NCBI GenBank assembly: GCA_021307315.1
Contig: JAJSPD010000059.1
Span: forward strand, 1-64,000
Length of the DNA stretch: 64,000 bases
DNA from: Bisporella sp. PMI_857
Lineage: Eukaryota; Ascomycota; Leotiomycetes; Helotiales; Helotiaceae
Reading direction: 5' to 3'
Shown here: in pieces, positions 7,310 to 53,764 of the stretch
How the letters are laid out: every line of letters starts with the position of its first letter
Numbering within the stretch: position 1 is the first letter of the stretch
Notes under the pieces: model-generated
Seen by the model: the letters and a program-made list of their open reading frames with translations, nothing else
Told to the model about the DNA's origin: nothing
Databases searched by the model: none
Made by a program: the position numbers and the translations under genes

Positions 7310-9554
7310 ATGGCCGAAACTATTTGCGGAGGTTGTCGAGATCTACTAACCAGCAAAAGGTTATACCGCAGACAGGAACGTACCCTAGATCAATTCAACC
7401 ATGCGGTGGACACTCAGTGCTATGTTTGTTACCACTTGTACCAGAGCCTTCTTCGTTCTAAAGACGCGATAAAAATGTGGGAAGAGAGTCGCGCACAGTC
7501 TACTGGGGATACTGTAATCGAGTTCGGTGGTTATTTCGATAGTGACACGGATCTGTCGCTAGTAATAGCAGCCCACAAAAAGACCGTCTATGGTTCCAGC
7601 GAGTGGTTCATGAGTGATAGGTTTATTCTAACACCCAAACAGGAAAGCGACGGTATGTCGATGCAACTGGTTCCGGGCTGTCGTCCTCTTGGATTGGAGC
7701 TGATTTGTCAAAGTCCAAAATTCCCCAAGTCGTCTAAATAAAGTCAAAGAATCAACTCCAACAGTCGATCCTAGTCTTTCATTCCCAGAGGACATGAACG
7801 CCGTAGCAAGTTTATGGCTCCGTGCTTGTCGCGAAAACCACAGTTCATGCCCTTCAGCCTGGACCACCAGCGATGAAACTGGTAATTCATTTCGTCCGAC
7901 TCGACTGCTTGACATTACTCAGCCGGGCTTTGTTCGACTGGCTTCCGGCGCAGATCCTACCATGTCCAAACAATACACCACCATGAGCCACTGGTACGCA
8001 AATTGACGGGCTAACATTCGTGGAAATGGCGCTAACGCCGAATAGTTGGGGCCAGATCGAGCTCTACACCCTCACAAAAGACACCTACGCCGACCTGTCG
8101 AAAGGAATTTCGACTTCCGAGTTGACAAAAACATTCCAAGAAGGACTCAAGGTTGCTCAAGGTCTCGGATTCGAGGCTATGTGGATCGACTCGCTTTGTA
8201 TCTTCCAAGACAAAGACGACCTCACAGATTGGCAGAGGGAATGCTCTCGTATGGCCGACGTTTATCAGCATTCTGCCTGCAATATCGCTGCCACTGCCGG
8301 TCAAGACGGAACAAACGGCTGCTTCTCTAACATGGGCGATCCATGTTTAGCTTGGCCGCCCATTACTCGTGTGTCACTTGTAAAAGAAAATTATGGTTCC
8401 GACGATCAAATACTAGATGGATGGTACCATCTGGTGACGGATAGTTTTCTTAAGGTTGAGCTGACGCAACAGCCCCTCTGCACTCGCGGTTGGGTTGTTC
8501 AGGAGCGCATTCTGGCACCGCGAACGCTTCACTTTTCTGCTAGGCAGATGTTCTGGGAGTGCTCGTCCAATTTTGTGTGCGAGTCGTTTCCCAGCGGTTT
8601 TCCAGATGAGCTTGATGGCATGGCCTCCGCGAAGCCTGCGAGAAAGCTGCTCATCAAATCCGAGGCAGTGAACAAGGACGCTAGGGACAAGTATTGGGCA
8701 TCCGTCGTTATGGATTACAGCGGATGTTTTCTCACGAAGGAGACAGATAAGCTGGTTGCAATTTCAGGTGTCGCCAAGTTAGTCCAGAGAGAGTTTGAGG
8801 ACGAGTACCTCGCTGGCCACTGGCACTCTTCGCTATTTAGTTCGTTGCTTTGGCGAATGACCTATGACCCATCAAGGGAAGTAACTGAGAAGGAGGAGTT
8901 TTACCCCTACCGAGCAGCACACTGGTATCGTGCTCCATCTTGGTCCTGGGCATCCATCGACGATGCCGTGCTCTTTTTGAACCCTGGCTCCGATTATAAT
9001 GCCGTCGCTGAGATTATTTCATGCACGACTCAGCCTCGCCCGGGTAGTGAGACAATGGGCCAGCTATTAGGCGGCACTCTTCGTATTCGTGGACCGGTTT
9101 TTGATATCGATTACTTAGAGTCTCATCCAAAAGCCCGTTCACGATCGGACCCCTTGTGTAGGACGGGAGACAACATGCCTTGCATGAAGGTTCGGGGAAC
9201 CATGGACAACAGGCAAGAACTGGAAGAACATCTCACTGAAGAAAGAAGTATTCCAGTGCTTGTCCTATTGTACAATTCCAAGAGCCAAAACTGCTATGGA
9301 ATCATACTATGGAAGAGATCTGGCGAGGTCGGTGAATACCGTAGAATAGGGGTGGTAGCTTTCCAACTAATACCAGCGGACTATTTCCACTACGGAAAGC
9401 CGAAGTCTTTTCCTAATTTTAGGGATGAGCCAGATGTGGGCTCTGCATATTTGAAATACGTGACAAAAGGTATGTTTCAGCTGCTTTCTTGTTTGCATCT
9501 AGTAAGGAATCATACTTACATACTAACTATTGCATAGAAGTTACAATAATATAG
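7310..9554 (+). CDS. HET-domain protein (heterokaryon incompatibility type), about 687 aa, three introns
   Basis: Model: 7310-7652, 7714-7993, 8046-9469, 9538-9554; total 2064 nt, in phase throughout. Introns: 61 nt (GTATGT, CTGAT branch), 52 nt (GTACGC, CTAAC branch, AATAG) and 68 nt (GTATGT, TACTAAC, CATAG). Splicing the second restores the canonical SHCWG motif of HET proteins, which is strong support. The N-terminus has paired cysteines (ICGGCRDLL, CYVC). After SHCWG come LTKDTYADL, WIDSLCIFQD, YQHSACNIAA, LCTRGWVVQERILAPR and FWECSS, the usual order of HET blocks. HET domains trigger cell death on contact of incompatible hyphae. The ATG at 7310 is chosen because the open frame upstream has no other ATG. 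The first intron could instead end at 7788. It appears intact. Confidence 0.88.
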
Positions 9555-12419: not shown

Positions 12420-13341
12420 AATAGGTGTTGTATTTTCCCGTGCCAGCCATACCACTCAGCCAGAATATAGGTTTGCCTTCCTTATCCTTTACCTATTCTT
12501 TTATGCGATGCAGTAACTCGGTGCGAGTATTCGGGAGGCATCTTGCATTATGTTCTTCCATATAGGAGTCAAAAGACGCTCTTTTCGCGATTGGTGGGTT
12601 AACCAGCTTATCATCCCTAATCTCTTTCAAGAGTTGATTCAGCGCCTTCTGCCGCCCTTCGCCGTAGATAAGCGGCATATGGATGTTGAAAATGCCTAGT
12701 AGAGAGTATGCTGCATCTTCTTCGTGTTTGGTCTGGCGATCCCCTACCCATGACATTCGCTCAATCGCACTAAATTGAGATAAAGGGCTTCCTCGAATGG
12801 ATTGAACGGCGATTCCGGTTATCTCGCGGAGAGTTTGTTCTAGTGATCGTTTATCACCAAGCCGCTTTCCCTCCGTGGAGGAGAATTCAACCGATGTCGG
12901 AGCGATAAGCTCTTGAAGTGTCCAGCCACGAGCGAACCATCTACTTTTCTTAAATGCCGGTTTCCACCTCCGGGAGAATTCATCGTCTTCCACGGAGCCG
13001 CTGAGCGAGACGTCCAATAAAAACACGTAGCATCTAGCCGCATCTTGGTACCAGCAAAACATGGAGTTGATGGCCTCTGAAAGCTCTGTGCTGCTTGACT
13101 TATCGATGCAGCAGGTGCCCACCCAGAAGAACTGCAATCCGTCCTTCGCAGCTTGTTTTCCGCAGAAGACAAGCTTGCGATAACCCGTCTTGTTCTTGCC
13201 CGCACCTTCCGTCAAGTCTTTAAAGGTAACTTTTTCGTCATCCGCTCCCCATGTATGCGAAAGAATTGCATATTGCAGAATGTGTCTGCCCAAATATTCG
13301 ACCAGGCTGAAGCAGTTATCTTCAAGCTGCAAAAGACGCAT
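12420..13341 (-). pseudogene. Broken HET-NACHT NLR (HET domain plus start of P-loop)
   Basis: ATG at 13341. The HET domain of NLR type is well kept: YAILSHTWGADDEKVTFKDL, GYRKL, QFFWVGTCCIDKSSSTEL, AINSMFCWYQDAARCYVFL, WFARGWTLQELIAP, ERMSWVGDRQTKHEEDAAYS and LLGIFNIHMPLIYGEG. After LLHRIKE a TAG sits where a Trp is expected. The same frame then reads IFWLSGMAGTGK, the Walker A motif of a NACHT NTPase, after which the frame is lost within a few codons. Intact relatives continue with NACHT and WD40, ANK or TPR repeats. In the HET core WVGTCC replaces the usual WVDTCC. HET-NACHT proteins act as NLR-type triggers of incompatibility; this one is truncated and probably silent. Confidence 0.85.
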
Positions 13342-13860
13342 GAAGAGACGACTGTCAGTGAGCGCTAGAAAACAAAATTATTGGAACAGACATAGCAAGG
13401 TGTGCGCGGGTCGGGCAGTCAAAGAACCGCAATTGTGCTGGCTGGCAAGTTTATGGAAGAAAACTAACAGGATCTGTTCTGGAATGGATAGTTGGGCAGG
13501 CAGCAGCGACGTGCCTGGGCTTCAGCGACTTAATATCACGTAGCCGGATAAGAGCGTGTAATGAGCAACACCATGCAATGATGAAATGGTTTTAACAGTT
13601 GATATCGCTCTGGACGTAGGGCTGTGAGGTGGCGAATCCTGTAGCTGTTTTCAGAGGAGTTGAGTTGGTTGACCAAAGGCAAGTAGGCCAAAAGGTCAAG
13701 TTAGATCGCAAGTCTGGCACAAATGCGACAATGCGAATTAATTTTCTAAGCAAGAGAGGTTCTAATTATTTAAGAGTAGCAATAGTACACAACCTATATA
13801 GAAATATAGTAAATATCGACGTATACACAGGGTTTGAGTTACCCAAAGTCAAAGTACCTA

Positions 13861-17372: not shown

Positions 17373-18715
17373 CAGTACCGTCGACTAAGTTTGCACTGAC
17401 CACCAAAATTATTATATAGGCCACAACTTCGGCCGACAACCACGTTTTAATTACTTAACCGATTTAGATTAAAATTGAAGCTATTGATACAGTTTTACTC
17501 GTCTTTTCTATTGATCCACTCCACGTGACAATTAGTATTTCGTGTGCCATCCCTTTGCCTTAATCACTGCTTCTACTCTATATGGCATACTGTCGGCGCA
17601 CTGCTCAAATAATCTGTCAGGCAAGGCATTCCAGCCTTCAATTAGGGCCTCTTCTAAGGCCTGTTGGGCCGCCTCGCTGTTGCCTATGTTGTTAAGCTCA
17701 GGGTAGTGCTTTAGCACCCACGCTTTAAGGTGCCACCAGATGTGCTCGATCGGGTTCAGATCAGGAGAAACAGCTGGGTGTGCTGCTAGTGGTATACCTA
17801 TATCGTTGAACCACTGAGTCACTGTCCTGGCGGTATGGATAGAAGCATTATCCTGCATAAAAATAAGACCCGGCTGCCAGCACCTAGGCAGCTGGTCGTC
17901 CAGCACTTCGATATAAGAGCGTGCTGAGTAGCCATGCTTTTTAGATTCGAAGTCTCGGTCCATTATATAAAGATCTGACCGGTAGACCTTGCCATCTACG
18001 AACCAAAAGCAGCCCCAGACCATAGCAGATAAGTCTTTTGACTTCTTATAAGTTTCGACAAACTCTGGCTTCCACTTATCGTCCTTAACCGTCCGGAATA
18101 CCCAGACTTGTGCCCCGCCTTTGCCCCGCTCTGCAGAGCACTCATCAGACCACATATATTGCCGCCATTGTTCGAGAGTCCAGTCTTTCCTAGCTACTGC
18201 CCAGGCAAGTCTAGCACGCGCATGAGCTTCTGTAAGCTCCGGCCGACCTCTAGCCCTCCAATTGAGTATGCCCGAAGGCTCTAGCATCTTTTTCAGCGTA
18301 TCTTTATGCCATAGGAACCCTCCTCGATCTTTCACTTGCTGCCACGTATCTTTTGGGTGTACTCGGCAGTATCGTACAAGCTTTCGAACGTCTCGATCGG
18401 TATATGTTATTTTCGGGCCGCTGCGCGGAAGGGTCTCGCCGTTGGTGCGTAATAAAGATCTTCGTCGTGTAGTTGCGACAGTCTCGGGCGGGTGATTAAG
18501 CACCCTTGCTACTTCGATAGGTTTATGCCCCATTTTTAGGGCTCCCATAATCTCTCCGCGTTCATAAGAAGTCAATTGGGTATTTCTCTTTCTATTGCCA
18601 GAGATCTGGCCCAAAGGTATACGTAGTTGGTTCATAATTAAAAAAATTAAAAAAGGTGGTGCTGGAGGTTACGCGAATTTTCGTGTTTTCGGTTCAAACT
18701 TAGTCGCTAGTACTG
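17373..18715 (-). mobile_element. Inner Tc1-type transposon, 1343 bp, apparently complete
   Basis: Terminal inverted repeats start CAGTAC and share CGACTAAGTTTG (left from 17373; right, reverse complement, from 18715). TA duplication at 17371-17372 and 18716-18717. It encodes one intact transposase and sits inside the transposase gene of the outer element. Confidence 0.88.
17532..18635 (-). CDS. Tc1/mariner transposase (DD34E), 367 aa, intact
   Basis: Cut-and-paste transposase of the inner element. ATG at 18635. The N-terminal third holds two helix-turn-helix units (SYERGEIMGALKMGHKPIEV from residue 23; TYTDRDVRKLVRYC from about 77), which bind the terminal repeats. The DDE nuclease has Asp164 (MWSDE), Asp262 (MQDNASIHTA) and Glu297 (SPDLNPIEHIWWHLK). 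Thirty-four residues separate the last two, giving the DD34E spacing of Tc1-type enzymes. No stop or frameshift, and length is normal for the family, so the element may still be or recently have been active, unlike its host transposon. Confidence 0.93.
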   Translation of the reverse strand: MNQLRIPLGQISGNRKRNTQLTSYERGEIMGALKMGHKPIEVARVLNHPPETVATTRRRSLLRTNGETLPRSGPKITYTDRDVRKLVRYCRVHPKDTWQQVKDRGGFLWHKDTLKKMLEPSGILNWRARGRPELTEAHARARLAWAVARKDWTLEQWRQYMWSDECSAERGKGGAQVWVFRTVKDDKWKPEFVETYKKSKDLSAMVWGCFWFVDGKVYRSDLYIMDRDFESKKHGYSARSYIEVLDDQLPRCWQPGLIFMQDNASIHTARTVTQWFNDIGIPLAAHPAVSPDLNPIEHIWWHLKAWVLKHYPELNNIGNSEAAQQALEEALIEGWNALPDRLFEQCADSMPYRVEAVIKAKGWHTKY

Positions 18716-19995: not shown

Positions 19996-20978
19996 CTATC
20001 TACTCAAAGGCAGATGCACGAGGCTTGGTGCCTCAGTGTGGTCATCCAATAGCCTCTTAAGATAGAAAACCAGATCCTCGTATCTCGGTCCGTACTTCAC
20101 CCGTAGTAACGGCTGGTAGTTCACGCTATCATCATCCCGAATAAGTAAACAGTGCCGATGTAGGAGATTCTTGTGTCGCTCGCTAGCCCATCTCAGGAGA
20201 GCGTCGAAATTTGGATCTTCTAGCCCTGAGCCGCATCCAACAAATAGAATAGTTTTATACTGTAAGAATTTTTTGAGCATATGCTGTACCACGCCTGAAT
20301 GCTTTACTTCGTAGTAGTCTGTTGTGTCCAGGACGACTTCGTGTGCGTCAAGATAGCTCCCATGAATATGGAAGGCTCCTTTAAGATCTCCACGTTGAAA
20401 CATTAAAACATCATCCTGGTTCGATCGGCCAATGCGTTGTATCCCACAGTGTTTCTCGAGGACATCGTCGTAATTTGTCGTGAGCAGAGTTGCCCCTTTT
20501 TCGTGCAACGCTTTAAGCACGTTGATAAGTGCAGGATGTCTGATTTCTTGACTTAGACTTCCAAACACCGACTCTAACCATGTAGGGAATTGACCATGCT
20601 GCTTCATTTGACTGCTCACGATATTTGCAGCGTCAAGTAGTCCTTCAACTTCTGGATCCTTAAGTGCATCATATGCCCTCTTTGTCCGTCGATTAAATGT
20701 GTCCACGTAGCCTTCACTAACTAGATAGTCCAGACCGTTTCGCAACAAGCCCGTCCATGTGATGAGAGAGAGAGGGTTCCCAGATATATCTGCGGTCACA
20801 TTAAGTGTAACTCCCGCACCAATTATAATCGCGAGTCGATTGTTCTTTAGGTCGTCGCGTAGTCGTGCAAGGATTTGCTCTTGGCGTTGAGCAACCTCCG
20901 TGGTAACTTCATCCTGTATCTACTGTTTTTAGTCCCGGTTCCCCTAGAGAGTTACGTTGTACGTACCGGAGGATTCAT
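19996..20978 (-). CDS. SIR2-like domain protein (SIR2_2 type), 309 aa
   Basis: Exons 20978-20967 (MNPP) and 20913-19996, with a 53-nt intron (GTACGT, ACTAA branch, ACAG). The model is in phase and supplies an ATG. The Rossmann-type start is RLAIIIGAGVTLNV (residues 30-43). LLTTNYDDVLEKHC carries Asn151 and FHIHGS carries His188, the residue pair that NAD-cleaving SIR2 relatives use. ILFVGCGSGLEDPNF (226-240) is the conserved C-terminal SIR2-like block. In bacterial defence systems such as Thoeris and SIR2-STAND, this fold depletes NAD to kill infected cells. Whether this fungal protein cleaves NAD is inference. It lies 503 bases downstream of the large NLR on the same strand, suggesting, not proving, a functional pair. 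Confidence 0.85.
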
Positions 20979-21481
20979 CGCAAGGTTTGATCGTGGAAGC
21001 AATGGGCCTGAAATTCGGGTTTAGCGGGGATAAGGCTGTCGCCAATGTAATGGCTATAATGGCTATGGGGGGCTAAATCAAATGTACGACGTCTATCAGG
21101 CTTCAAGATCAGAGACATTAAGGTGTTGGGTTGATTTCTCACAGAGCGAGCTTGGTTCTGTACTTCGTAGTAGGAGGTCATCACAACGAGTCTTTAGAAA
21201 CGATGGGGCTTCAGCTCTTCCTACGGGCGCTAAACGCACAGACCACTGATCGAGCAGATATGTCCACTCAGTGTTACTAAAATCAGAGGAATCAAATGAA
21301 TTCGCCTAATTGCTGGCCCCTGTCGCTGTTTCCGCACTGCCGATCTGCCACTGATCTGTGCACCCTGGTCGATGTATGAAGAGCCAATTCACGGGTTCCA
21401 ATACACTTACTTACCACCTCGTAGGTTTATAATTTGGCTTGGTCTTTACAATGCCACTCGTCTGATCGCCAACCCCTTTAT

Positions 21482-24400
21482 TTACATCAACGGATCCTCC
21501 CAGCCATCGTCATGGTTCTCGCCTTTATCCATATCTTCGTATTGCTCCTTAATTCTATCTGTCATGTACTCTTCATTCCAACTCTCATCTACAAATGTGA
21601 AGCCCTTGAAATTTGCTTGCATGGTAGGAGATAGTGGCTCAGATGCTAGCGCTGCAGCTCTCGCGTTAAGTGACGAGGAGCCGTCATTGGCAAGAGCATC
21701 CATGAACTCCGGATCAAAGTTAGATGCATCGATTTCTGACATGAGCTTTGGTTTGAATGGGGGCGGGATTTGCTTTTTAGCTAGAGCAACCCAATCAATG
21801 TCATTAAAAAATGGATGATCTTTGAGTTCCTCCGCGTCACGAGCAACACCTAGCCGATGTTTCGGATTTCGGTTTAGTAGACCTTTCACAAAATTTCGTC
21901 CTTCGGTACTAAGTGCGTCCCGTGGAAATCGAACTTTGCTAAAAGCAATGTTTTTATACATTTGTTGAGTATCTTCGGCATAAAATGGGCTCCAACCACA
22001 GCACATCTCGAATACTATAACTCCTAGCGACCAGAAGTCAACTACTTTAGTGTACTTTTGCTCATCTAACAAGACCTCCGGTGCCAAATACTCGACATCG
22101 CCACAAAACGTATTAGTTGTTGCGTTTTCAGTCAGGGTAGCTTTCGATAAACCAAAATCACACAGAGCGATATGTCCGTTAGCATCTAGGAGGATATGTT
22201 CTGGCTTCAAATCTCGGTAAATTATATCGTGGCTGTGCAAGTGTTGCAGGGCCAGAATGAGTTCTGCGATATAAAACTTTGCTCGCATCTCGTTAAATCT
22301 ACCCTCTTTCTGAAGGTGCCAAAAAAGCTCTCCTCCAGACATGTAGTCTGCGATGAGGTACAGATCTGTTAGTGTTTGGAATGAGAACTTGAGTCCCACA
22401 ATGAACGGTGAATCCGCTATCGCTCTTCTGGCAAGAATATTTTGCTCTCCGACCGTATGAGCGGCCTCCTGAACAATAACCTTCTTCGGAAGTACTTTCA
22501 TGGCATATATTCGCTTAGTGCCTTTCTTTCGTACCTGGTAGACCTGCCCGGAAGTTCCTTTTCCAATCAACTTTAAAATCTGGAAATCGTTAGGCCCATA
22601 ATGCTTCTTTTCTGTTGCCTGAAAGGCAGTTTCTACGTAAATCTCGCCTAGCGCATTCTCGTCGTTACTGTATCCTTTTAATGGGTACCATCCACGAACG
22701 GAAGTGTCACCGACCTCCAGGAGTATTGGTTCTAAGCTGACACGACCGATAAATTCTTGGTTGGTCGTACCACGATCGTAAATCGAAATATCTAACAACG
22801 AGTCAGACCTAACAACATCACTGCATAGATTGTTAGCCCAAGGCCGAAGCCAACTCCTGACTCAAGTCTTACAAAACTGCCTCTATGTCCCATTTGGGGC
22901 GGGTCATTAACTTGTTCACAGCCCCCAACTTGACGGTTCGATAATCGCCCAGGCTGGCCACACTGCCATTACTGCTCTGTCGACTTCGCAAGGTCATCGC
23001 AAATGGTGACCTCCCGTTATCACTTCCGGATCTTCCAATTGGGATGCCAGCAATTGGGCTTTCCCTCCCATCCTCTCCTGTGCCATCCTCATATCCCACC
23101 TTCGAAACCAACTCATTCTTTTGAAAGACTGCGACGATATAAGGCTCTCTACATTTTCGCAAGCCTCTTGCTTCCACGATCTTGATGTTCAAGAGTCCCT
23201 TCGGTGCTAAAATGGGAGTTGAAGGGAGTTCTGTTTTTTGGTAAGTGGTGATTAAAGTGACTGCTTCCTTAAATCCACTTTCCGAAGCGATCTGGATGGG
23301 CATTTTGAGCTGGCGGTTTTCAGCGAAAGAATTTGCTCCAGCATTAAGAAGAACTTTGCAAATATCCAGGTTTGGCTGGCTACGTTCGCATGCGAAGTGT
23401 AGAGGAGTATCGCCGAATTCATCCTTGGCATTGACATTCGCGCCGCAGTCTAGCAGTTCTTTTACCATATCTTGATCAGATTGCCAAACAGCAAGATGGA
23501 GGGGGGTTTGTCCGAATATGTCGGCAGCATTGATGACACTTGCTGTGAACGAGGGCAAAGAAGATGAGGCCGCCTTAGATTTTACGTTACCCCAGAAGAC
23601 GCGCAGCAAACCTATATCTGAGGTCGCAGCTATGTGGTGAATGGGCGTCCTTCTCTTTCGGTTGCGAGAACTTACATCCCCCCCATAATCTAAAAGGAGA
23701 ATCATAGCTTCTCTGTTGCACCCGTTTGCTGCTGCAATGAGAGGAGTCCCGTATTCGCCGCCTTGAACGTTGCAATCGTCGCCTAAATCCAAGAGACATT
23801 GAATCCAAGTCTTCAGATTGCGTTCAGCGGCGAAATATAGTAGGGTCGTCTCTATAGAGACGTTCTCTTGGAGGGAGAGTAAGCGCTTCCAAATGCCTTT
23901 ATTGCGAAGTCGTTCGATAATCTTTATTGGGTCAGCCCTCTCTTTTTCGGCAAGGGAGGCGTGGACAAAGATCATGTTGGAAGCATATGACAGAAGTGCT
24001 GGAAAATCCTCAAGGACCTGTGATTGGCCAGCCACAGACTGAGCGACACTGGCCAAGGCAACCGCATCTTCCAGAGCTTCCGGGGGAGCTGCTATGACCG
24101 GATCATTCAGAAACTCTCGTAATGCAAATAAGGTGTCCTCCTCAATACCGTCATGGGTTTTCGTAGAGATTCCGCGTGTTGTTACTGTAGTTGCTGCTGC
24201 TGCTGCTCGCAGTGCCGATCTCACAGAATGGTTTGAATGAACGGATGGAACGTAATCCGATGCTGAAGTACCAAAACTTGTTACACTCAGAGGTCTTTTG
24301 TGTACTCCACGATGCTTTTCCGTTTGGGGTCGCGATTCCATGAAGTAAGATGAGAGTGGGGGGGAAGCCGACCCTTTGGACCCTGCATTCATTCGTGCTT

Positions 24401-27341
24401 GAACTAATGCATCGAGTTCACTAATACTAATGTAATCAAGGCAGGTGTTCAGGATGGACAGATGCCCTTCCCCTATAAAATGGGGTCCAATATTTGGATC
24501 CAGAAATGAGAAGCCATTATGGTGAAGGAAAAATTCACGAACGGACTCGTGTATGAACTGTACAACTCTGTTCTCACCATGATCCGCATCTTGGGATCCA
24601 GCACCCGCCGAAATAGAATCCCATTCATCGTGGGCATGAGCTGACAGGCCTTGGTCTTGTTGGGTCTTTACCTCAACCAGGCCCCTGGATATGCTTCGAA
24701 TCTGCCACTCGAGCTGTTGGTCATTCTCGGTATAGTCTTCAGATCCTCGCCACTCACTTAATGAACTAGGAGCTCTACCTTCAATAAATGCGAGGACGTG
24801 ACGCCACTCACGAAGCCTCAGGGTCCTTCTAGCAAGGAGAGCCCATTGGAAGAACAGGGTCGTTGTGTGCGATTCTTGTGAGTTTGTCCCTTCCAGGATT
24901 TGGGCGAATAGTTCTTCAAGCGCCTGTGGTACTTGGCGAATGCGATTTTCTAGGTGCTTAATGTTTTTGCCCTTATCTCGATCTTTGAGCAGAATGTTCA
25001 CCACGAGTACAAGCCAGAGAAATACTCCAGAAGATCTCTCGAGAATTTCGAGGACCAAATGAGCCCATTGACCGTCACTGCTGATATCACCAGCAGCGAA
25101 TCTCTGCTCTACATAGCGTATCATATCTGGCCCGTTGAAATCTTCCACGATGATTTCAGGGCAGAGGCGGATCGTGATGGTCGGGTACTGTCTGCTTGAT
25201 AGGCAAATATCGAGTTCCAATCCATCTTTATAAGCGGATGTTGTTACGTTACGGAAAAAGTAGGCGAGGTCTCTCATGCCTTCTCCCGTGCATTCATCGA
25301 GTGCGTCAATGAAAATTACGGTTCGTCGCGCTCCAGGCTGCATGAAAATTGAATGAAAAAAGGACTTGAGCGCTCCGACGTGCCATATAACACATTTGCT
25401 TTGATCCTTGTCCATGCACCGATAAAGGACCAAGAACCTACGAAAGGCGTCCCGGGATTGGGGCAATAGCTGGTACAGCAAAGACCGAAAGAGACCAAGA
25501 GGACTTCGTTCTAGCTCCCCCCCACACGCATTGAAGAAGAAGCAAGCCGTGAGGAAGTTTCCCTCTGACTTTTGCTGTTCAACGTGCCGAAAGGCTTCTT
25601 TCATTAGGGTTGATTTGCCTGATCCCGGTTTTCCCTTGATCCATAGCAGGCCGTGGTGATTTTCCAGGTTTTCACGAGCGCGCCATGCTCTGTATGTTGG
25701 GGCTTGTAGTAACCACAAGCATGTCTCTTCCAAAGGCATATCGATGGTTTGTTGCCGGGTTTCTATTCCTTGAAAGAAAAGAGACTGGAGGCAGGCTTAT
25801 GTCAAAAGTGGACATTAGCCTAGCAAAAAACCAAACAGTGGAAATATTTGTTACCTTTTTCGATAGATGTGGGCTCTCTTTTACCACTCTCAGATCCTAT
25901 AAGTTGTTTAGCATCTCTCACTAAGTCATTGGGATAGCGTATGAAATACTATATTTGTCACTCCTCCAATTAACTGATATGGCCTGGTGATTGTTTCCTT
26001 CAAGTGAATGATAGATAATCTTTAGTTCTCCTGAAACTTTGCGGTAGTTTGGGTCACTAGCGTTGCTAAAGCGGCACATGTCCATGTGGTTTGCGTCAAG
26101 AGTTTCAGCTCGTTCCCGTGAGTCACCAAGCAGAGAAGAGAAGTCCGGGACGATCTTCAAAAATGAGAATTAGCATCGTTAGTCTCAACTATTTTGTAGC
26201 ATCCGCACCTTTTCGTTTAGCAAGCCGATCTTGACTCCGGTTACAGGAAAGCCTTCCTGAAAGGTTTTCACTTGAAATTTGTGTGATAACCACAGCCTCG
26301 AGAATGAGTCCTGGCAGCGCTCCAGCTCAGAGTTCTTCAAACCAAGAGCATCTAACATAGCAGAGTTTGTGTCCATCAGAACGGCGCTAGCTACTTTACG
26401 AGCCATTTCTCCTACGCTTGCCAAGTCCTTGCTACCACGATGCGGCGTTCCCAGGAATACAACTGCAGTGGTTGACTCAACGATATTCAGGAGGTCCTTT
26501 TCTGCGGACATGTATGAGCGCGCCAGCATCTGTATCGAGAAGAATTAGAACTCCTGCATTATTTCCTTTCTTGTACACAACTCACATCCTTAACTATAAT
26601 ACCTCCTAATGAGTGTGCAACAAATACAAGTGGACGATTGAGATCCCTGTTTCGCTGCAAGGCAAAAAGGAGATCTTTGCTGTGTGAAAAAATACCATTC
26701 TGGTTCACAGCAGCAGTCATATACTTAGTGATCTTGGTGTCATACCCCCAGGTCAAGATTCGGGCTCTAGGACAATCGGTTGGAAGTAGGTCTGCAGGCC
26801 AGAAACTAAATGACGCATGAAAGACGTTATCCTTTTCTACTGGTCGTTGGTCTTTACCAAGAGAAACATTCTCTAAGGTGGCTCCACTTTGCGATGTGCC
26901 TACGGACTCCTTTAGATGCTGTGGTATGAGGCGTCGAAGGATTTTCTTGGAGCGCTGCTTGTTAGGCCGAGGATTTGGCAGTCTTGGGCTTAGATCAGGA
27001 GCCTTTTCATCCTTCTTGCAAGCCCAGGTCTTGTATGGATGGCCCTGCAGACCGTGGACAAAGACAATACTAAGAGTCTATGTAAGCTATTCGATTCGAT
27101 ATGCTGTAGAATATGATACCAGCGCATCTACGAGTACAAAGCTGAGCTAGATCATGTGACTAGTGGTGGCATAGGATAGGCGGGGGAATGTCGAAGCTAA
27201 ACGGATCAATAGAATTGATAGTATACTAGCCTGCCCAGGGGACAACTTTAGAAAATTTTATGCTTACTCAACGATCGCATCAGCATTCTCGGGCTCATAG
27301 AGGACCGTGATCTCGGTGTCAAATATTGAATGTTCTGCCAT
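21482..27341 (-). CDS. NLR fused to a Sch9-like kinase: alpha/beta hydrolase-NACHT-ankyrin-C2-AGC kinase, about 1795 aa
   Basis: Seven exons: 27341-27268, 27069-26586, 26529-26209, 26154-25950, 25896-25855, 25795-22873, 22820-21482. They total 5388 nt with phase kept at every junction; five introns are 52-59 nt and the first is 198 nt. Residues 1-320: SesB-like hydrolase with FVHGLQGHPYKTW, nucleophile Ser178 (VAHSLGG) and His316 (ANHMDMCRF). NACHT: Walker A GKPGSGKST (430-438), Walker B TVIFIDALDE (534-543). About 1025-1230: ankyrin repeats (GQTPLHLAVWQSDQDMVKEL). From 1239: C2 domain starting GLLNIKIVEARGL. From 1429: AGC kinase with Lys1458, Glu1475, YRDLKPEH, DFG at 1571 and hydrophobic motif FKGFTF. 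The ANK-to-C2 link lies inside one exon, so the fusion is not a merging error; intron 22872-22821 falls within the C2 domain. Relatives of C2-kinase are Sch9 (TORC1 target). Likely an immune or allorecognition receptor with an integrated kinase. Confidence 0.88.
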
Positions 27342-28793: not shown

Positions 28794-30469
28794 TTATTCG
28801 ATGTTAAACATCATTCCTTCCATACTAGCATACTCGCCACTCATAGCTCCAACAACATATGACGGCCCAATAAACTGGTAAGTGCGGGCAGCATTCTCAA
28901 CTAACCTCTCCCTAAGCACAATTGGCAACCTGCAACCATACAAAACACATGCAACGTCGCCACGACGCATATTCGCAGGTCCAAGCCCAATATGTCCCTC
29001 AACGGTATAAAAAAAGCAGCGATTTCTCAACCGCAAAAATAGGAACTCAAAATACTCTACGACATCCAAAAACTGCGCCAACTGCAATTCATCGTTTATG
29101 GCAGTAACAGCGTCCCATAATTGCTGGCAAGAAAATGGACAAATCTTGGTCGATTGGCTATGCATTCGATCGCCAGTAAGCATCGTGAAGAATTGTAATT
29201 CCTTCTCAGCTTGTGACAGTGCCGGATATTGCCGCTCGAGATGTCGCAGAGAAGTTCTTTTCATCTCTTCCAATGAGGCTCTGAATGCCATAAAATGTTC
29301 ATATGACTTGCCGGAAGCCATAAACTCGAATGGGCCCTGTACATGAGCTACCTTGCTAATGACAGTACCCCCAGCCTTAAGAATCGTGCCAGTGACGATT
29401 GCTTTTGAGTCACGGCGGTCTCCCGATGTGTTGTATTCCTCGGCCATCCCAACTAATGGACGTGTGATATTTGGGATCCATGACGGACTATCATTCCACC
29501 TATTATCCCGGCGCAGCTGCGAAAAGCCACATAGAATGTTGAAATTGCGATAGGCATGCAGGTAAGATCTCACCACATCATACATCAAATCCGGGAAAGA
29601 TTTCTTGTAGTCCGGTTCCAGATGCTGAAGAAATTGCTCCGGGAAGAGGCCTAGAAGTCCATAGACCTTATCCAGGCTCTGCGTCGCCTGAAGGTGCCAT
29701 GAGTCCCGTAGAATCAGCAGAACGTCACTATCGACGCTGGTAGTGAGAAGCAGCAATTTTCGTGGGATCCAAGCAGATGATTCTTGCGTTGCAAAGCCAG
29801 ATAGACGCTTCCAGGACAGGAATTCTCGAACTGCCGTGACAGACACTGACTTCAGCCCGCAGTGAAATGATACTCGACGAGCCACAGCCAGTTCTTGGAC
29901 AACCCACACACGTGTCCAATATGGGCGTGCCCACAGCTTCTCGAGGGCTTTCATGACATTGTCGGATTTGTCCCGCGGGTTGGCGTCGACCCAGCACATG
30001 CTAGACAAGTACGCCATAGCCTGGTCACTGTCATCTGCTTCCTCCCCCAGCCAGGCTACAACTTTGTCTGCAGCCTGGTAGATGCTTTTCATCTGAGCGA
30101 CCTGATGATTCCTCTCTTGAATATCACTTTGGTCGATGCAGATGGCGTCTACCCATAGGGTCCTAGAAACCTTCGAATTGCGGAGATATACCAGTGCGGC
30201 ATGCAGGCCGCTGGTGACTCCAAGGAGTCTTCCATTCACAGCAATAGGCTGGAGAAAGGTGGAATCCCCCATACATATGACAATGCTGTATATTGGGGGT
30301 TGGAGTCTAGAGACTGTGCAAATAAGCGGCACGCAAGAGGTTCTGGCATGATTCCTGGCAGCAGCTCAATCAGCCGCACTGTTCGAGTCTCATAATTGAT
30401 TGGGCATTGCTGGTAAACTGGAGCGGATGGAAATGTTGGCTTCAATAGCGGTGACGACATGCCGATCAT
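28794..30469 (-). pseudogene. HET-domain gene with a single-base frameshift
   Basis: ATG at 30469. The N-terminus YETRTVRLIELLPG and YTALSYVWG starts a HET domain. The next block, DSTFLQPIAVNGRLLGVTSG, is in another frame. The remaining 500 codons are open to 28794: RTLWVDAICIDQSDIQER, QMKSIYQAADKVVAWLGEE and PYWTRVWVVQELAVARR, then a long C-terminal region with LDKVYGLLGLFPEQF and SPSWIPN. The break is in a run of five G (plus-strand C, 30266-30270); six would restore YVWGDS. This is either a very young pseudogene or a homopolymer sequencing error. If real, only about 70 residues are made. No intron with GT-AG ends fits here. Confidence 0.85.
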
Positions 30470-38680: not shown

Positions 38681-40018
38681 GCCTGCGAGCGTATCTAACC
38701 TTCCAAGTCCTATATAACTATAACACCTGCAACGCAAAATCGGGCATCAATGCCACATCGGCGCTTTCAAATCTACTTATTTTCGCTGTATAACTTCAGC
38801 CAAAAAATAAATAAAAATAAAATCGTAATCTGCTATTTATTACATTTTATTGTTGCACGGCTGTACTTTCAAGTCAAAGTTAAACATTTTTTTATGTTAC
38901 TTAGCCGTATAGAAGAAGCAGCCTTGGTCTTGCTTTGCTTTGCTATATGCGCTGCTGTCGCGGGGAGTTAGGGGTCTATATAGCACTATAGCACGTTGGC
39001 TATCGGTGGATTCACTTTTGGCCGCATGGTGCAGTGGTACCATTTTACCGCGTCACAGCTGCTACGAGGCTGCTATACTGCATAATATAGTGCAATTTAA
39101 TGTTGGCATATAAGAACTGGTTGATTACAGTGCAGCTGCCGAGAAAGGGTGGGGCCATAAAGGGAATTATGGTGCGATTGGTTGTCGCATGCAAAATTGT
39201 TGGGCAGATGATATGGTGGGGAGAGGCAACCGGCTGGTACCAAGCGCTTAGAATGGCAGGGTGGATGGGACGGAATGATGGAAAAGCAGCGTGCTTTGGT
39301 GACGTGTCAGTGGTTTGATACATCTACAAAGGCCGCTATCCCCTCTATTTCTAGTCTTAGTATCAGTCTTACTATAAAAAGAAAATGTATATTCTAGTAT
39401 TATACTGCTTGCTATATAGATTAATTAAATTCTATACCCTTTTGCCCTTTTGCCCTTTGCTCTATACTAAATTGGAAGGCTTTGTGTGAGCCAGTGTTTA
39501 ATATATAAAAAGAAAAGATACGCGTCTCACATGCCTTTGTATGTTTTAGAAAGATTTACTTAAATAACTTAATCCGTACTAGCTCTTGCATAAAATGAAG
39601 TGAATTAAAAGATGAGTAACATTAAAGAATCAAGTTAGTACTTAAGGGACCCTTTACTAGTGTGGTGAGTCGCTACCTGAGCCCTTGCAGCCAGTTGTAC
39701 AGTAGCACAAATCTCACCCTATAAAACTTTTCCTTCAGGCGGTCTTTCTTGGTAGCCAAAGCTTACAAATGTTATGCCGTAAGTGAACGCTATAAGACAA
39801 CGCTTCTTTTGTGATAGATCCAAACACCGTTTCTTTTTTCTGGCTCTCGGGTCCCTTTTTGTCACATATTAGCAGTAGCATACATAGTCTGGCATTCGTT
39901 GTCCCGAACGGAGGAGGCTAACCAATATTGCATTCTGGGATCTAGTTTCGGGTCGTTGACAAACCGTCAATCACGCATCACCATTATTAAGGATACCGGG
40001 TAGACGTTCCCGCGAAGT
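38681..40018. other. Intergenic stretch before the third HET gene
   Basis: AT-rich, no gene or repeat that I can support. A short TTTTGCCC direct repeat sits near 39440. Confidence 0.35.
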
Positions 40019-42070
40019 ATGGCCTACCATCCTCTGGACTCCACTGCTGGGGATATTCGATTATTGTATCTACTTCCTAGCGTTGATGGAGAAGGAGATA
40101 TACAGTGCAAGCTAGAACATCGAAGTCTTGATAAGAATGCGACATATTCCGCACTCTCATATGTCTGGGGTAACCCTGAGCCGGCGAAAGCTATCACCTT
40201 GAACGGGAATCCACAGTCTGTAACACCGAATCTCTTCGCCGCCTTGCGGAGACTCCGCCACACTACGGAAACGATGTGCCTCTGGATTGATGCTTTATGT
40301 ATTAACCAAGGCGATAATCAAGAACGGAGTTCTCAAGTCGAACAGATGGGAAAAATTTACGAGACTGCTGAGGTTGTTCTAATGTGGTTGGGCGAAGAGG
40401 AGAATAATAGTAACTTGGCAATGGAGTTAATCCAGCTCCTTTACACGACAGTACGTAAGGAAGGCAGGGCTGTCTTTGAACCCGAACGCTTTGATCGCTT
40501 GAAAGACTTGCTCAGCAATATATCCTTTGAGCAGCACTGGTTAGCACTTGGGCACCTCTTCAAGCGCCCGTATTGGAGCCGCGTCTGGATTATCCAAGAA
40601 GTTCTGCTCACTAACCATGCGCTTCTCTCTTGTGGTGTTTCAAAGAGCAACTGGGATAACCTTATGCAAATTCTTTACCTTTTGTCGAAGTCGTCTTTTT
40701 CGTATCTATTACCCGCAGCGAAGGATATATTGTTGAATCCCGCAAGCTTGCCGATATCATTGGCGACAATGCATGCGAGGCGGACGATGGGTGAGAGGAT
40801 GTCTTTCTTAGATGGCTTAGTGCTCTATCGAAACCGGCTGGCCACTGATCCCAGAGACCACGTTTACGCCATTTTGAGTTTGGTCGAGCACAGCGACTTT
40901 AAACCAGATTATAACAAGCCTCTTTTCACACTATATAGAGAGGTGGCCAAGTTCATGATCAAAATGCATGAAAGCCTTGATATACTCAGTGCTTGCAAGA
41001 AGGCCCAGCTGCGAACTTTCAGCCTCCACACGGCGGTTCTTTCGTTAACTGAGTCGCTTGGTAAGGGTGTGGAAGCCGCCCGGTCCGAGGAGACTGAGGC
41101 GCAGAGCGATGTGAGTTCAGAGCGTCTTTCTAGTTATCGGTGTGGACTAACAGATATTCACTTAAAGTCAGAAGAGGGTATTAGGGAATTGGAAAACATA
41201 AACAAATCCTTGCAGGAGAAGTACCTCCCTTCTTGGGTTCCAGATTGGCGAGATTGGGTTAATGAGTCGGGATACCTGTTACTCGACTACTCGGACAAGT
41301 GTTACTCTGAAGCCGGTGGTAACCCACAGCCCCAGGTCGATTTTCTAGACGACGAACACAACTTGAACAAGTGTTACTATGAAGCTGGTGGTCGAACAAA
41401 GCCGAAGGTCCATTTTCCAGAAGATGAACGATTGTTGGTGGCTGATGGTATTCGCGTCGATAGCATCAAGGTAGTATCGTCTAAGATGACCGGTTCAGGT
41501 AGCATGAGCCCCGCGATCAAAGGTGGCTGGGACTTGTGGCACCTTGGAGACCATCCCACACATTTATATGGAGATCGAAAGCAGCAAGAGGCTGCATTCC
41601 TGCAAACTATAGTTACAGGAAGAAATCTGGACGGCAGCAAGGGCAATCGTCATTTGTCCGCTAACTCAGCGAATGCTATGTTTGAGCTTGGTTTAACAGA
41701 TGATGGCCAACAAGAAGGAGACCAGCACCCTACTGAACGCGAGTATATGTCGATAAGTCTCATGAATCCATGGTTCGGGTTTTGCATCACAAGCCAGGGT
41801 TTCATGGGTCGTGTACCACACGGGACTCAACCAGGTGATGTTGTTGCTGTTTTTCTTGGGGCCAAAGTCCCTTTCGTGCTACGAAAGCACCGCAGTGAGG
41901 ACCGATACTTCTTTGTTGGAGAATGTTGTAAGTCCATTAAATCGCATCGACTCTCGAGGCTAATAATTAACTTGTAGTTACTTTAAGATATCCATGGCAT
42001 TATGGAAGGCGAAGTTATGAACGGGCTGGAGAAGGGAGAGCAGGATTTGGAAAAGTTCTGTTTGATGTAA
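40019..42070 (+). CDS. HET-domain protein, 663 aa, one intron
   Basis: Exon 40019-41927, intron 41928-41987 (60 nt; GTAAGT, GCTAAT branch, TTTAAG), exon 41988-42070. The splice turns a truncated tail into GECYIHGIMEGEVMNGLE, the conserved end of this HET subfamily, which confirms the model. The HET domain has RLLYLLPSVDG, YSALSYVWGNPEPAKAITLN, NLFAALRRLRH, LWIDALCINQGDNQERSSQV, KIYETAEVVLMWLGEEENNS and RPYWSRVWIIQEVLL. A long C-terminal region follows with DPRDHVYAILSLVEHSDFKP and YLPSWVPDW. An imperfect internal repeat (KCYSEAGGNPQPQVDF and KCYYEAGGRTKPKVHF, about residues 430-475) is a local duplication. Predicted role: trigger of heterokaryon incompatibility or related cell death. Intact. 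Confidence 0.92.
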
Positions 42071-51578: not shown

Positions 51579-53764
51579 ACCGATATCCCGTGACAAAGCA
51601 CGCCCCGCATCAAAGCACACCAAAACCATCAAAATTTTGAATAACAAATTAATTAATAGTAAATCAACCATGCACTCAATTGTATTGAAAATAGGCTCAT
51701 TTAAAGCGCAACAATTTGATCTATCATTAAGGAAATATTTACTATTGTATGTAGCGTGCTGGGGTTTTGATTGCTCTTCCTGACCGATTTTGTCGGACTA
51801 CTACCGGTGTAACTAGCTCGACCTCTATAGCTTGATTCAATGATTTCCAGCGTGGTTTAGTAATCGAGAATGCTTTAATAGGTTCTTTCGGAAGTTTTAG
51901 AACCTTCCGAGGAGTCACTATAGGTATATTGGCTGTAGGAAGTGACTTCGTATTTGGTGATTTTGCTGAACCGAGATTTTGACTAGCATTCTCTAAACGT
52001 AATTGATTCTCAACAAGTTTAGCAAGCTTCTCTTCTGCTTTTTGCTCTCGAATAGCTTTATTAGTACGAGCTTTGAGCTTTTTATCCAGTTTAGCTTGCT
52101 CAGCGAGTTGATTCTCTTGTTGTTTTTGATCCTGGAAAATCAACGCTTTAGCCACTTTGGCAGGTGAGTATAGAATGGTTCCAGTACTAGGCTCTCCACT
52201 TAAATCAAGCTTTCCTTTCCTTTTGCGCTTTTCCTTTTCAAGGATAATTGCTTGCTGAAGGCCTTTATTGATGTGTTCTGCAATTTCAGCTCGAGTAATG
52301 CAGATATCTATTCCTTTCAACAGCTTTTGAGTGAAGTTCTCACCAAAACCTTGTTTCCGAGCTAGGCAAGCCGCACGTAAAGATCTAACGTTTGTAGGAG
52401 TTCTAATAGAAGTCGAATGCCTTTCAGAAGCACGTGCTATTGGCCGACGAACTATAGAAAGCAAATACTCTTCGTTGATTGGCCAGATTCCAGGTTTGGC
52501 AAAAGCATGACGTATGGTTTTTTCAGTAAATACTTCATTGAAAGCAGTTTCGAAAATCCTGAAAAACAAGCTTTTTGTCATAGTAAGAAGACCTGCGCTT
52601 TGTGAAAGCTGAATATCAAGCTGTATAGAATAACTAGTAGCTAATGGGCCAAACATGCCAATATCGAGAGGCTGCAATTTGTGTGTTGAGTGAGGTGGTA
52701 GAATCAATATGATAATACGGTTTTGACTAGCCCACTGTATAAAAGCCCAATTCACATGACTAGCGTGCCCATCTACTATTAGTAATCGGGTTTCTCGAGA
52801 GCTGATTGGCTTAGTATGTCTGTCGAATATTTTTTGTAGCCATAATAGGCCCATTTCGTTGCTACTCCACCCATTCTCTGTAGAGCTGAAATAGGTATTA
52901 GAATCCTTATTAACATGTGACAGCCAGCTAGCTTGAAGCTCGTGATTTGATCCTTTATAAATCAATAAGGGTGGAACTGATTGGCCAGCCGCTGATATAC
53001 AAGCTATACACGTAACAAATTCCCTGTTGCCATCTTGTCGATTTCGTACCCCTTGTAGTTTATTTGAAGCTTCAACTGTTATAATACGTTTTGCTGTTTG
53101 CCCTATGCCTATCAAGAAGCCTTTCTCATCAACATTCCATATATTTTCAGGCTTAATTTGATGTTTTGTGGTTGCGTGGTGCATCTATAGTAAAGCAACA
53201 ATTAGCAATTTTATTTCAACAAAAAATAATAAAAAATCAACCACAAATTAAATTGACTTACATGGCTGTAGAATAGCTTAAATAAAGGCTCATATTCAGA
53301 GGCTGCTCTTAAATTGTCGATATTTCGTATATAAGCCGATTTAAGTTGATCTTTGTAACGAGCTACAAATTGGCCAACCCAGTTCTTTCCTACCGAAGCT
53401 CCTCGTATCTCTTCTGCAAGGTTCTTAACAATTTTGCTTGTTGGAGGCATATTTCTCATGCTTAAATAATTGATTCTATCAATTAAAAGCTTCTCTTGAA
53501 CGTCGGTAAGGCATTGTCGGCCATACGAGTCGGCGGTTTGCTTGTGTAGCGTAATTCCTTGTCTTCGTCTGTCAATCGCCGATCTCGAAACCTTGAACTC
53601 TGCCGCTGCATGGGATGAATATTTGAACTCTCCTCTTTCGATTGCTTCAATCGCTTTTGTAATCCGATCAGATTTGCTATATTTATCCATGATTGAAGCT
53701 AGGTTGTTAGCATTTTGAAGTGGGGTGTTTTGATGCGGGGTGTGCTTTGTCACGGGATATCGGT
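51579..53764 (-). mobile_element. Complete pogo-type DNA transposon, 2186 bp
   Basis: Inverted repeats start ACCGATATCCCGTGACAAAG at both ends and stay alike for about 45 bases. TA duplicates flank it (51577-51578 and 53765-53766). One spliced transposase gene fills the interior. Confidence 0.9.
51742..53690 (-). CDS. Pogo/Fot1-like transposase, about 623 aa, one intron
   Basis: Exons 53690-53262 and 53184-51742; intron of 77 nt (GTAAGT, GCTAAT, CTATAG). ATG 53690 (MDKYSKSDRITKAIEAIERG). The N-terminal psq-type helix-turn-helix (YSSHAAAEFKVSRSAIDRRR) and CENP-B-type second domain (LTDVQEKLLIDRINYLSMRN, then VGQFVARYKDQL) bind the ends. The DDE_1 nuclease has Asp in NVDEKGF, Asp in LLIVDGHASH and Asp in HKLQPLDIGMFGPL (DDD type). 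It has a Lys/Glu-rich C-terminal tail. No stop or frameshift, so it is probably young and possibly functional. Confidence 0.92.

Follow-up and report, generated by a model that had tools for sequence, protein, structure and literature searches.

A single gene that encodes a NOD-like receptor (NLR) with a kinase tail was found in the genome of Bisporella sp. PMI_857. It lies on the minus strand, at 27341-21482 of the window, by which we mean the whole stretch of 64,000 nucleotides that was analysed. The window is the start of a contig (C240, 281,121 bases) in a genome of 55.6 Mb. The spliced model has seven exons and encodes 1791 amino acids with no internal stops, and its domains are, in order, a hydrolase, NACHT, ankyrin repeats, C2 and an AGC kinase. 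An earlier note on this DNA had placed these same domains in one gene, and this was borne out by the stop-free model and by Pfam. The note had also put the ankyrin-to-C2 junction within the exon at 25795-22873, which is open throughout and does join NACHT, the ankyrin repeats and C2. Its six introns and its unbroken frame were recovered as well, but its length of 1795 codons was not, as 1791 amino acids were obtained here. The exons and the receptor domains are listed below.

27268-27341, minus strand: exon 1, start of the alpha/beta-hydrolase (SesB/DUF676-like), with donor GTAAGC (spliced model)
26586-27069, minus strand: exon 2, hydrolase, with the HSLGG nucleophile elbow at model residue 177 (tblastn of NLR relatives, spliced model)
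26209-26529, minus strand: exon 3, hydrolase (tblastn of NLR relatives, spliced model)
25962-26154, minus strand: exon 4, end of the hydrolase, IVPDFSSL... (tblastn of NLR relatives, spliced model)
25855-25896, minus strand: exon 5, a short linker exon with inferred boundaries (spliced model, NLR relatives)
22873-25795, minus strand: exon 6, open throughout, with NACHT, a linker, the ankyrin repeats and the first half of C2 (open reading frame, Pfam)
21482-22820, minus strand: exon 7, with the second half of C2, the AGC kinase, the turn motif and the hydrophobic motif (Pfam, similarity searches)
25191-25727, minus strand: NACHT / NPHP3_N domain, with GKPGSGKST and VIFIDALDE intact (Pfam, sequence)
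23235-23852, minus strand: ankyrin repeat region, with its 5' limit set by eye (Pfam)

The least certain part of the model is the pair of small introns at 25961-25897 and 25854-25796. Their removal gives the join EKACLQSL. The relatives of the NACHT-ankyrin region used throughout are the best 120 of 2926 (7988 candidates scored; P0172-P0291), and a looser form of this join was present in 11 of the 120 and the exact form in 2 (P0222 and P0229). The last intron, at 22872-22821, is 52 nucleotides long and reads GTAAGA...GGGCTAAC...GCAG.

As read from its motifs and profiles, the receptor portion is complete, with a hydrolase, the NACHT motifs and ankyrin repeats. The hydrolase encoded by exons 1-4 was 42-57% identical to that of NLR relatives (tblastn, 40 rows of 140), and DUF676 was matched at residues 163-219, barely above its cut-off (20.9 compared to 20.3). 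NPHP3_N was found at residues 395-573 with 102 bits. The NACHT profile scored 26.4 bits on the full model, below its cut-off of 26.7, and 27.7 bits, above it, on the exon alone. GKPGSGKST is the Walker A motif and VIFIDALDE the Walker B motif. Ank_2 was above its cut-off in several stretches. The three parts of a tripartite fungal NLR were found, namely an N-terminal effector domain, NACHT with Walker A and B, and C-terminal repeats.

The tail has the layout of Sch9, with C2, an AGC kinase, and turn and hydrophobic motifs. Pfam placed Pkinase at residues 1426-1684 and Pkinase_C at residues 1706-1755 of the spliced model. C2 (PF00168) was above its cut-off only on P0121, the deposited kinase model of 589 amino acids, where the match covers just the latter half of the profile; neither the full spliced model nor the single exons had it among their listed domains. 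The first half of C2 is assigned by its similarity to Sch9. The best-scoring Protein Data Bank sequences for the tail were AKT2, then SGK1 and AKT1, then S6 kinase. When the organism's own genome was searched, the kinase exon was 80% identical to one locus (L035, on C189), the C2 stretch was 58% identical to the same locus, and the next kinase was 50% identical. This locus is the canonical sch9, with a product of 915 amino acids (P0001). Comparison of the tail with the canonical gene, which the earlier note had proposed, gave 74% identity over 99% of the C2-kinase query and bore out an origin from Sch9. In addition to this identity, the tail and canonical Sch9 (BPK2) have in common the order of C2, kinase and hydrophobic motif and one intron. 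The fusion differs in lacking the N-terminal region and the last residues, in having a receptor in front and in its changed catalytic residues. The shared intron is in phase 2 and lies after the same codon in both genes (EAVF, then DVV), with 52 nucleotides in the fusion and 49 in sch9. The shared position means that sch9 was copied at the DNA level. Sch9 homology starts at C2, at about 23198, which corresponds to residue 325 of P0001, and the 324 residues before it, with the N-terminal regulatory region of Sch9, are absent from the fusion. At the other end, the last residues of Sch9 are missing through a net 4-base gap. By these comparisons, the tail descends from sch9. The features at its limits are the following.

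23198-23234, minus strand: junction of the ankyrin repeats and C2, with Sch9 homology from about 23198 (alignments)
23301-23303, minus strand: internal ATG, the start of the deposited P0121, Leu in the NLR relative P0172 (alignments)
22821-22872, minus strand: intron inherited from sch9, with the same phase and codon (alignment to canonical sch9)
21439-21481, minus strand: non-coding sch9 homology beyond the stop codon of the fusion, 35 of 43 bases identical and then fading (alignment)

The deposited P0121, named 'AGC family', takes as its start a Met near the end of the ankyrin region of exon 6, at position 23303 of the window, and is 100% identical to the tail in the window. The deposited gene model splits the open reading frame (ORF) and conceals the fusion. 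For the NLR half, no full-identity match was found among the listed NACHT-ankyrin relatives (781 amino acids or more). The earlier note had also proposed a search for the order of NACHT, ankyrin repeats, C2 and kinase elsewhere, and among the relatives listed there was one case with the join into C2, which was P0172 (964 amino acids, on a contig of 218,147 bases). The ORF of P0172 is continuous from NACHT through the ankyrin repeats into C2. It is 64% identical to the fusion over 965 aligned positions, C2 included, and by part the identity is 71% in NACHT, 68% in the next part, 61% around the ankyrin repeats, 29% (5/17) in the linker between ankyrin repeats and C2, and 57% in C2. Residues 730-922 of P0172 include no Met, and Leu occupies the position of the deposited start. 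Its ORF ends with WDLVTCL, level with the ends reached when the intron is read through in the fusion (WDIEAVL) and in canonical sch9 (WDTEAVL), which suggests that the sch9 intron, and hence a kinase exon, follows at this point in P0172 too. C2 identity is 55% between P0172 and the fusion and 38% between P0172 and canonical Sch9. In a C2 tree, P0172 and the fusion were paired with an SH-aLRT of 97, on a very long P0172 branch (3.58) that drew the program's long-branch warning. The DNA of P0172 had no match in a scan of viral contigs. Since P0172 has the same NACHT-ankyrin-C2 join, the same end codon and no Met at the deposited start, a split gene or an assembly error is unlikely. The fusion is therefore unlikely to be an artefact of annotation or assembly, and we consider it almost certainly real. 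The integration probably took place in a Helotiales ancestor common to P0172.

Next, the tail was compared with 170 other Sch9-type sequences at 312 near-invariant columns. The fusion departs at 43 of them. Between canonical residues 393 and 894 there are 27 departures (3 are gaps), and nearly all of the 16 before residue 393 lie in or beside the region that the fusion lacks. The canonical Sch9 of the same genome departs at 1 column, against a median of 0; the highest counts among the others, 18 each, belong to two short models (637 and 638 amino acids). Three of the changes lie in conserved loops of the kinase.

22550-22552, minus strand: tip of the glycine loop, F to S, model residue 1436 (alignment of Sch9 relatives)
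22196-22198, minus strand: catalytic loop, N to H, model residue 1554, PKA N171 (alignment of Sch9 relatives, AKT2)
22094-22099, minus strand: P+1 loop, TT to DV, model residues 1587-1588 (alignment of Sch9 relatives, AKT2)

The first residue of the P+1 TT corresponds to T201 of PKA. The usual glycine-loop F, catalytic-loop N and P+1 T are kept in all 170 Sch9 relatives; in the fusion tail, the catalytic residues of Sch9 are not all intact. The beta-3 Lys, alpha-C Glu, YRD Asp, DFG, APE, T-loop Thr, turn-motif Ser and hydrophobic-motif Thr are unchanged. Asn171 is among the residues required for catalysis (PMC4718504) and binds Mg (PMC5130182). The activity of the tail is predicted to be reduced or lost. 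The structure predicted for P0121 from 15 sequences had a mean pLDDT of 42.4, too low for use.

Between the fusion and canonical sch9, the ratio of nonsynonymous to synonymous rates (dN/dS) was 0.14 (546 codons); for the 261 codons of the kinase domain it was 0.07. The neutral expectation was calculated for the fusion branch alone, to which half of the synonymous differences were assigned, and the observed counts come from both branches. On this basis, 18.5 nonsynonymous differences were observed in the N-lobe compared to 84 expected, 22.5 compared to 86 in the C-lobe and 22 compared to 39 in the C-tail. As estimated from these counts and those for C2 given below, purifying selection is strong in the kinase domain and weak or unproved in C2. 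Polarised amino-acid differences fell on the fusion branch 106 times and on the canonical branch 17 times, with 12 ambiguous. Seven of the eight coding-part indels have lengths divisible by three, and the remaining one is the terminal frameshift. Damage by repeat-induced point mutation was considered and set aside; C>T and G>A changes from canonical to fusion numbered 68 in 22600-21482, with 60 in the reverse direction, which is no clear excess.

The distance between the tail and the organism's own sch9 is uneven. Third-position divergence is 0.546 over the 163 codons before P0121 residue 304 and drops there to 0.225 over the following 244 codons, and an equally strong step was seen in 0 of 2000 shuffles. 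The synonymous sites of C2 and the N-lobe are saturated and the intron is identical at 26 of 52 positions, whereas the distance is much smaller in the C-lobe and just past the stop codon. Strong synonymous constraint was considered as the cause of the low C-lobe divergence, but the identity in the non-coding bases after the stop (35/43) speaks against it. In the C-lobe tree, the fusion was placed with its own P0001 (support 56) and in a trio with P0027 (91), and a pairing of the C-lobe with P0004 was rejected by the approximately unbiased test (p-AU 0.027). The tree of C2 and the N-lobe gave no firm placement of the fusion, and sisterhood with P0001 was not rejected (p-AU 0.457). The whole module was joined to P0001 and P0027 at 98/84, on a long branch (0.77 compared to 0.078 for P0001). 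The simplest reading, which is not proved, is an old integration that was followed by gene conversion from the organism's own sch9 across the 3' part. If this is true, the catalytic-loop and P+1 changes postdate the conversion because those sites lie in the younger part.

Among the best 120 of 1147 relatives of the ankyrin-C2-kinase region (7987 candidates scored, within about 781-2485 amino acids), Pfam found only kinase-type and C2 families, i.e. Sch9-type proteins. Among the best 120 of 2926 NACHT-ankyrin relatives, a C2 tail was found in one, P0172, and there was no Pfam kinase family and no kinase BLAST match better than E 3. Other such fusions may have been missed among relatives beyond those listed. 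The receptor part was 28-66% identical to these hydrolase-NACHT-ankyrin NLRs in best local alignments of varying coverage. One of them, P0184 from Neonectria, carries another kind of extra C-terminal domain, a fungal C2H2 zinc finger (PF24537). The whole genome of Bisporella sp. PMI_857 gave 89 NACHT matches at E up to 0.001 (of 180 candidates scored), which is a large NLR repertoire.

Rpg5 has a kinase domain, and for some plant NLRs with integrated decoys the effector is known. Such plant receptors, Rpg5 among them, resemble the gene described here in that a duplicated host protein domain is fused to the NLR, with a kinase as the extra domain (PMC4246468, PMC6570958). They differ in being NB-ARC-LRR receptors and in the family of the kinase. 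In fungi, nine Sordariales NLRs with C-terminal kinases from CHK2/PRD-4 were proposed as integrated decoys in 2025 (PMC12258605). These T-NACHT NLRs of Chaetomiaceae and Podosporaceae are also complete tripartite NLRs with a C-terminal copy of a conserved cellular kinase, and they may stem from a single integration common to related lineages. The present gene has a different donor, Sch9 (AGC, with C2), and belongs to another fungal order; its catalytic-loop residues are changed, and the fusion was hidden by the deposited annotation. A few basidiomycete NLR candidates have an N-terminal C2, and PKinase appears in the domain table of the same source (PMC4986451). In the open-licence full-text literature searched, a Sch9 or C2-AGC tail on a fungal NLR was not found, and of the papers matched to Sch9 together with NACHT none was on fungi, judged by title. 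The earlier note knew of no fungal NLR with this tail; that stands for a C2-AGC/Sch9 tail in the open-licence literature, but C-terminal kinases derived from CHK2 had already been published (PMC12258605). Kinase-tailed fungal NLRs are thus already known, and Sch9 is another donor.

The locus is a neighbourhood of immunity genes and transposons. In a Pfam scan of 7 window ORFs, of the 14 ORFs with 200 amino acids or more, a SIR2_2 ORF was found at 19996-20919 (minus strand, 63.7 bits), about 560 bases downstream of the kinase stop and on the same strand as the NLR. By analogy with other systems, it is a possible NADase-type partner of the NLR. There are four HET-domain ORFs in the window, at 28794-30365 (minus), 7987-9537 (plus), 12493-13377 (minus) and 40004-41977 (plus), and the NLR is flanked on its own strand by the SIR2_2 ORF and the first of these. 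Two DDE transposase ORFs lie at 17532-18668 and 51742-53184, both on the minus strand (DDE_3 with a Tc3-type helix-turn-helix, and DDE_1). The ORF at 2092-2700 resembled a retrotransposon fragment when judged by eye.

We favour, as somewhat probable, the reading that the tail is an integrated decoy or sensor module derived from Sch9. The extra domain of the NLR does come from another conserved host protein, as is the case in integrated decoys. The sequence shows a copy of sch9, from C2 onward, fused in frame downstream of the ankyrin repeats in a complete hydrolase-NACHT-ankyrin receptor. The mock Sch9 would rest on the ankyrin or NACHT part and keep the receptor off. The trigger would be that Sch9-like kinase is bound, modified or destroyed, whether by a factor from a mycovirus or mycoparasite, by an incompatible self protein or through abnormal phosphorylation of the TORC1 type. 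NACHT would oligomerise on the trigger, and the N-terminal hydrolase would then carry out a cell-death-type response. The earlier note had left the kinase as either bait or signalling output. Bait or sensor is favoured over output because residues of catalysis are changed while residues of the fold and phosphorylation sites are kept. In a more specific form, put forward tentatively, the NLR may guard the TORC1-Sch9 axis with a non-catalytic Sch9 mimic that keeps the phosphorylation sites of Sch9, and gene conversion from the real sch9 may renew this mimic and so preserve its likeness to the target.

Several points weigh against the decoy reading. It is an inference, and no attacker of Sch9 was found in the literature searched. 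The tail is not a pseudokinase in the strict sense, defined by loss of the VAIK Lys, HRD Asp or DFG Asp (PMC4718504), as all three are intact, and the same paper notes that some kinases with altered motifs stay active. P0172 covers the join of ankyrin repeats and C2, and its ORF reaches as far as the position of the sch9 intron. In C2, 71.5 nonsynonymous differences were observed compared to 88 expected in the first part, and 54.8 compared to 63 in the second part and linker, and this expectation is too low because synonymous sites there are saturated. The roughly sixfold protein change on the fusion branch compared to the canonical one also fits partial relaxation. One mycovirus paper (PMC11898685) was retrieved as a lead to an attacker of Sch9 and rejected, as it apparently matched 'Sch9' through the strain name SCH941A1.

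Another possible explanation, which we hold to be unlikely, is that the NLR reads phosphorylation of the tail by PDK1-like and TORC1 kinases and so senses the nutrient or TORC1 state and not a foreign attacker. In its favour, the fusion keeps the T-loop Thr, turn-motif Ser and hydrophobic-motif Thr found in all 170 relatives, next to changed catalysis-related residues, and yeast Sch9 is phosphorylated by TORC1 and PDK1 orthologues, with T737 as the site followed (PMC9974134). However, yeast Sch9 needs its N-terminal domain for recruitment to the vacuole (PMC9974134), and the fusion lacks that domain. Taken together with the decoy reading, a decoy or sensor role in some form is quite likely. 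That the tail is an active AGC kinase serving as the effector of the NLR is improbable. The strong match to the kinase profile and the intact Lys, Glu, YRD and DFG residues would suit such an output, but the Mg-binding Asn, the P+1 Thr and the glycine-loop Phe are changed and the receptor already has the N-terminal hydrolase as its effector. We find it highly improbable that the chimaera is a decaying accident without function any longer. Its long branch, its lost invariant residues, the weak constraint on C2 and the net 4-base gap that ends the protein ahead of the canonical tail are in keeping with decay, whereas the low dN/dS of the kinase and the mostly frame-keeping indels, despite saturated 5' synonymous sites, are not, nor are the intact NLR motifs and the ankyrin-C2 join common to P0172. 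The deposited annotation, finally, implies two adjoining genes, an NLR and a separate 589-residue AGC kinase that starts within the last ankyrin repeat. P0121 is indeed the deposited model, but no stop lies between the ankyrin repeats and C2, the presumed start Met is Leu in P0172, and the Met-free stretch of P0172 lies in an ORF that runs from NACHT into C2. Two genes are thus extremely improbable.

Little is known about what fungal NLRs detect, and a host domain integrated in one of them points to a pathway that may be the target. If the tail is bait, as in the decoy reading, mycoviruses, mycoparasites or incompatible partners would attack the TORC1-Sch9 axis of fungi, and the tail would be a ready reagent for finding the attacker. 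As the split annotation illustrates, public gene sets can break up fusions of this kind, which may then be undercounted. The gene would also be a second kinase integration in fungal NLRs, with a donor other than CHK2, and would point to a strategy that fungi share with plants.

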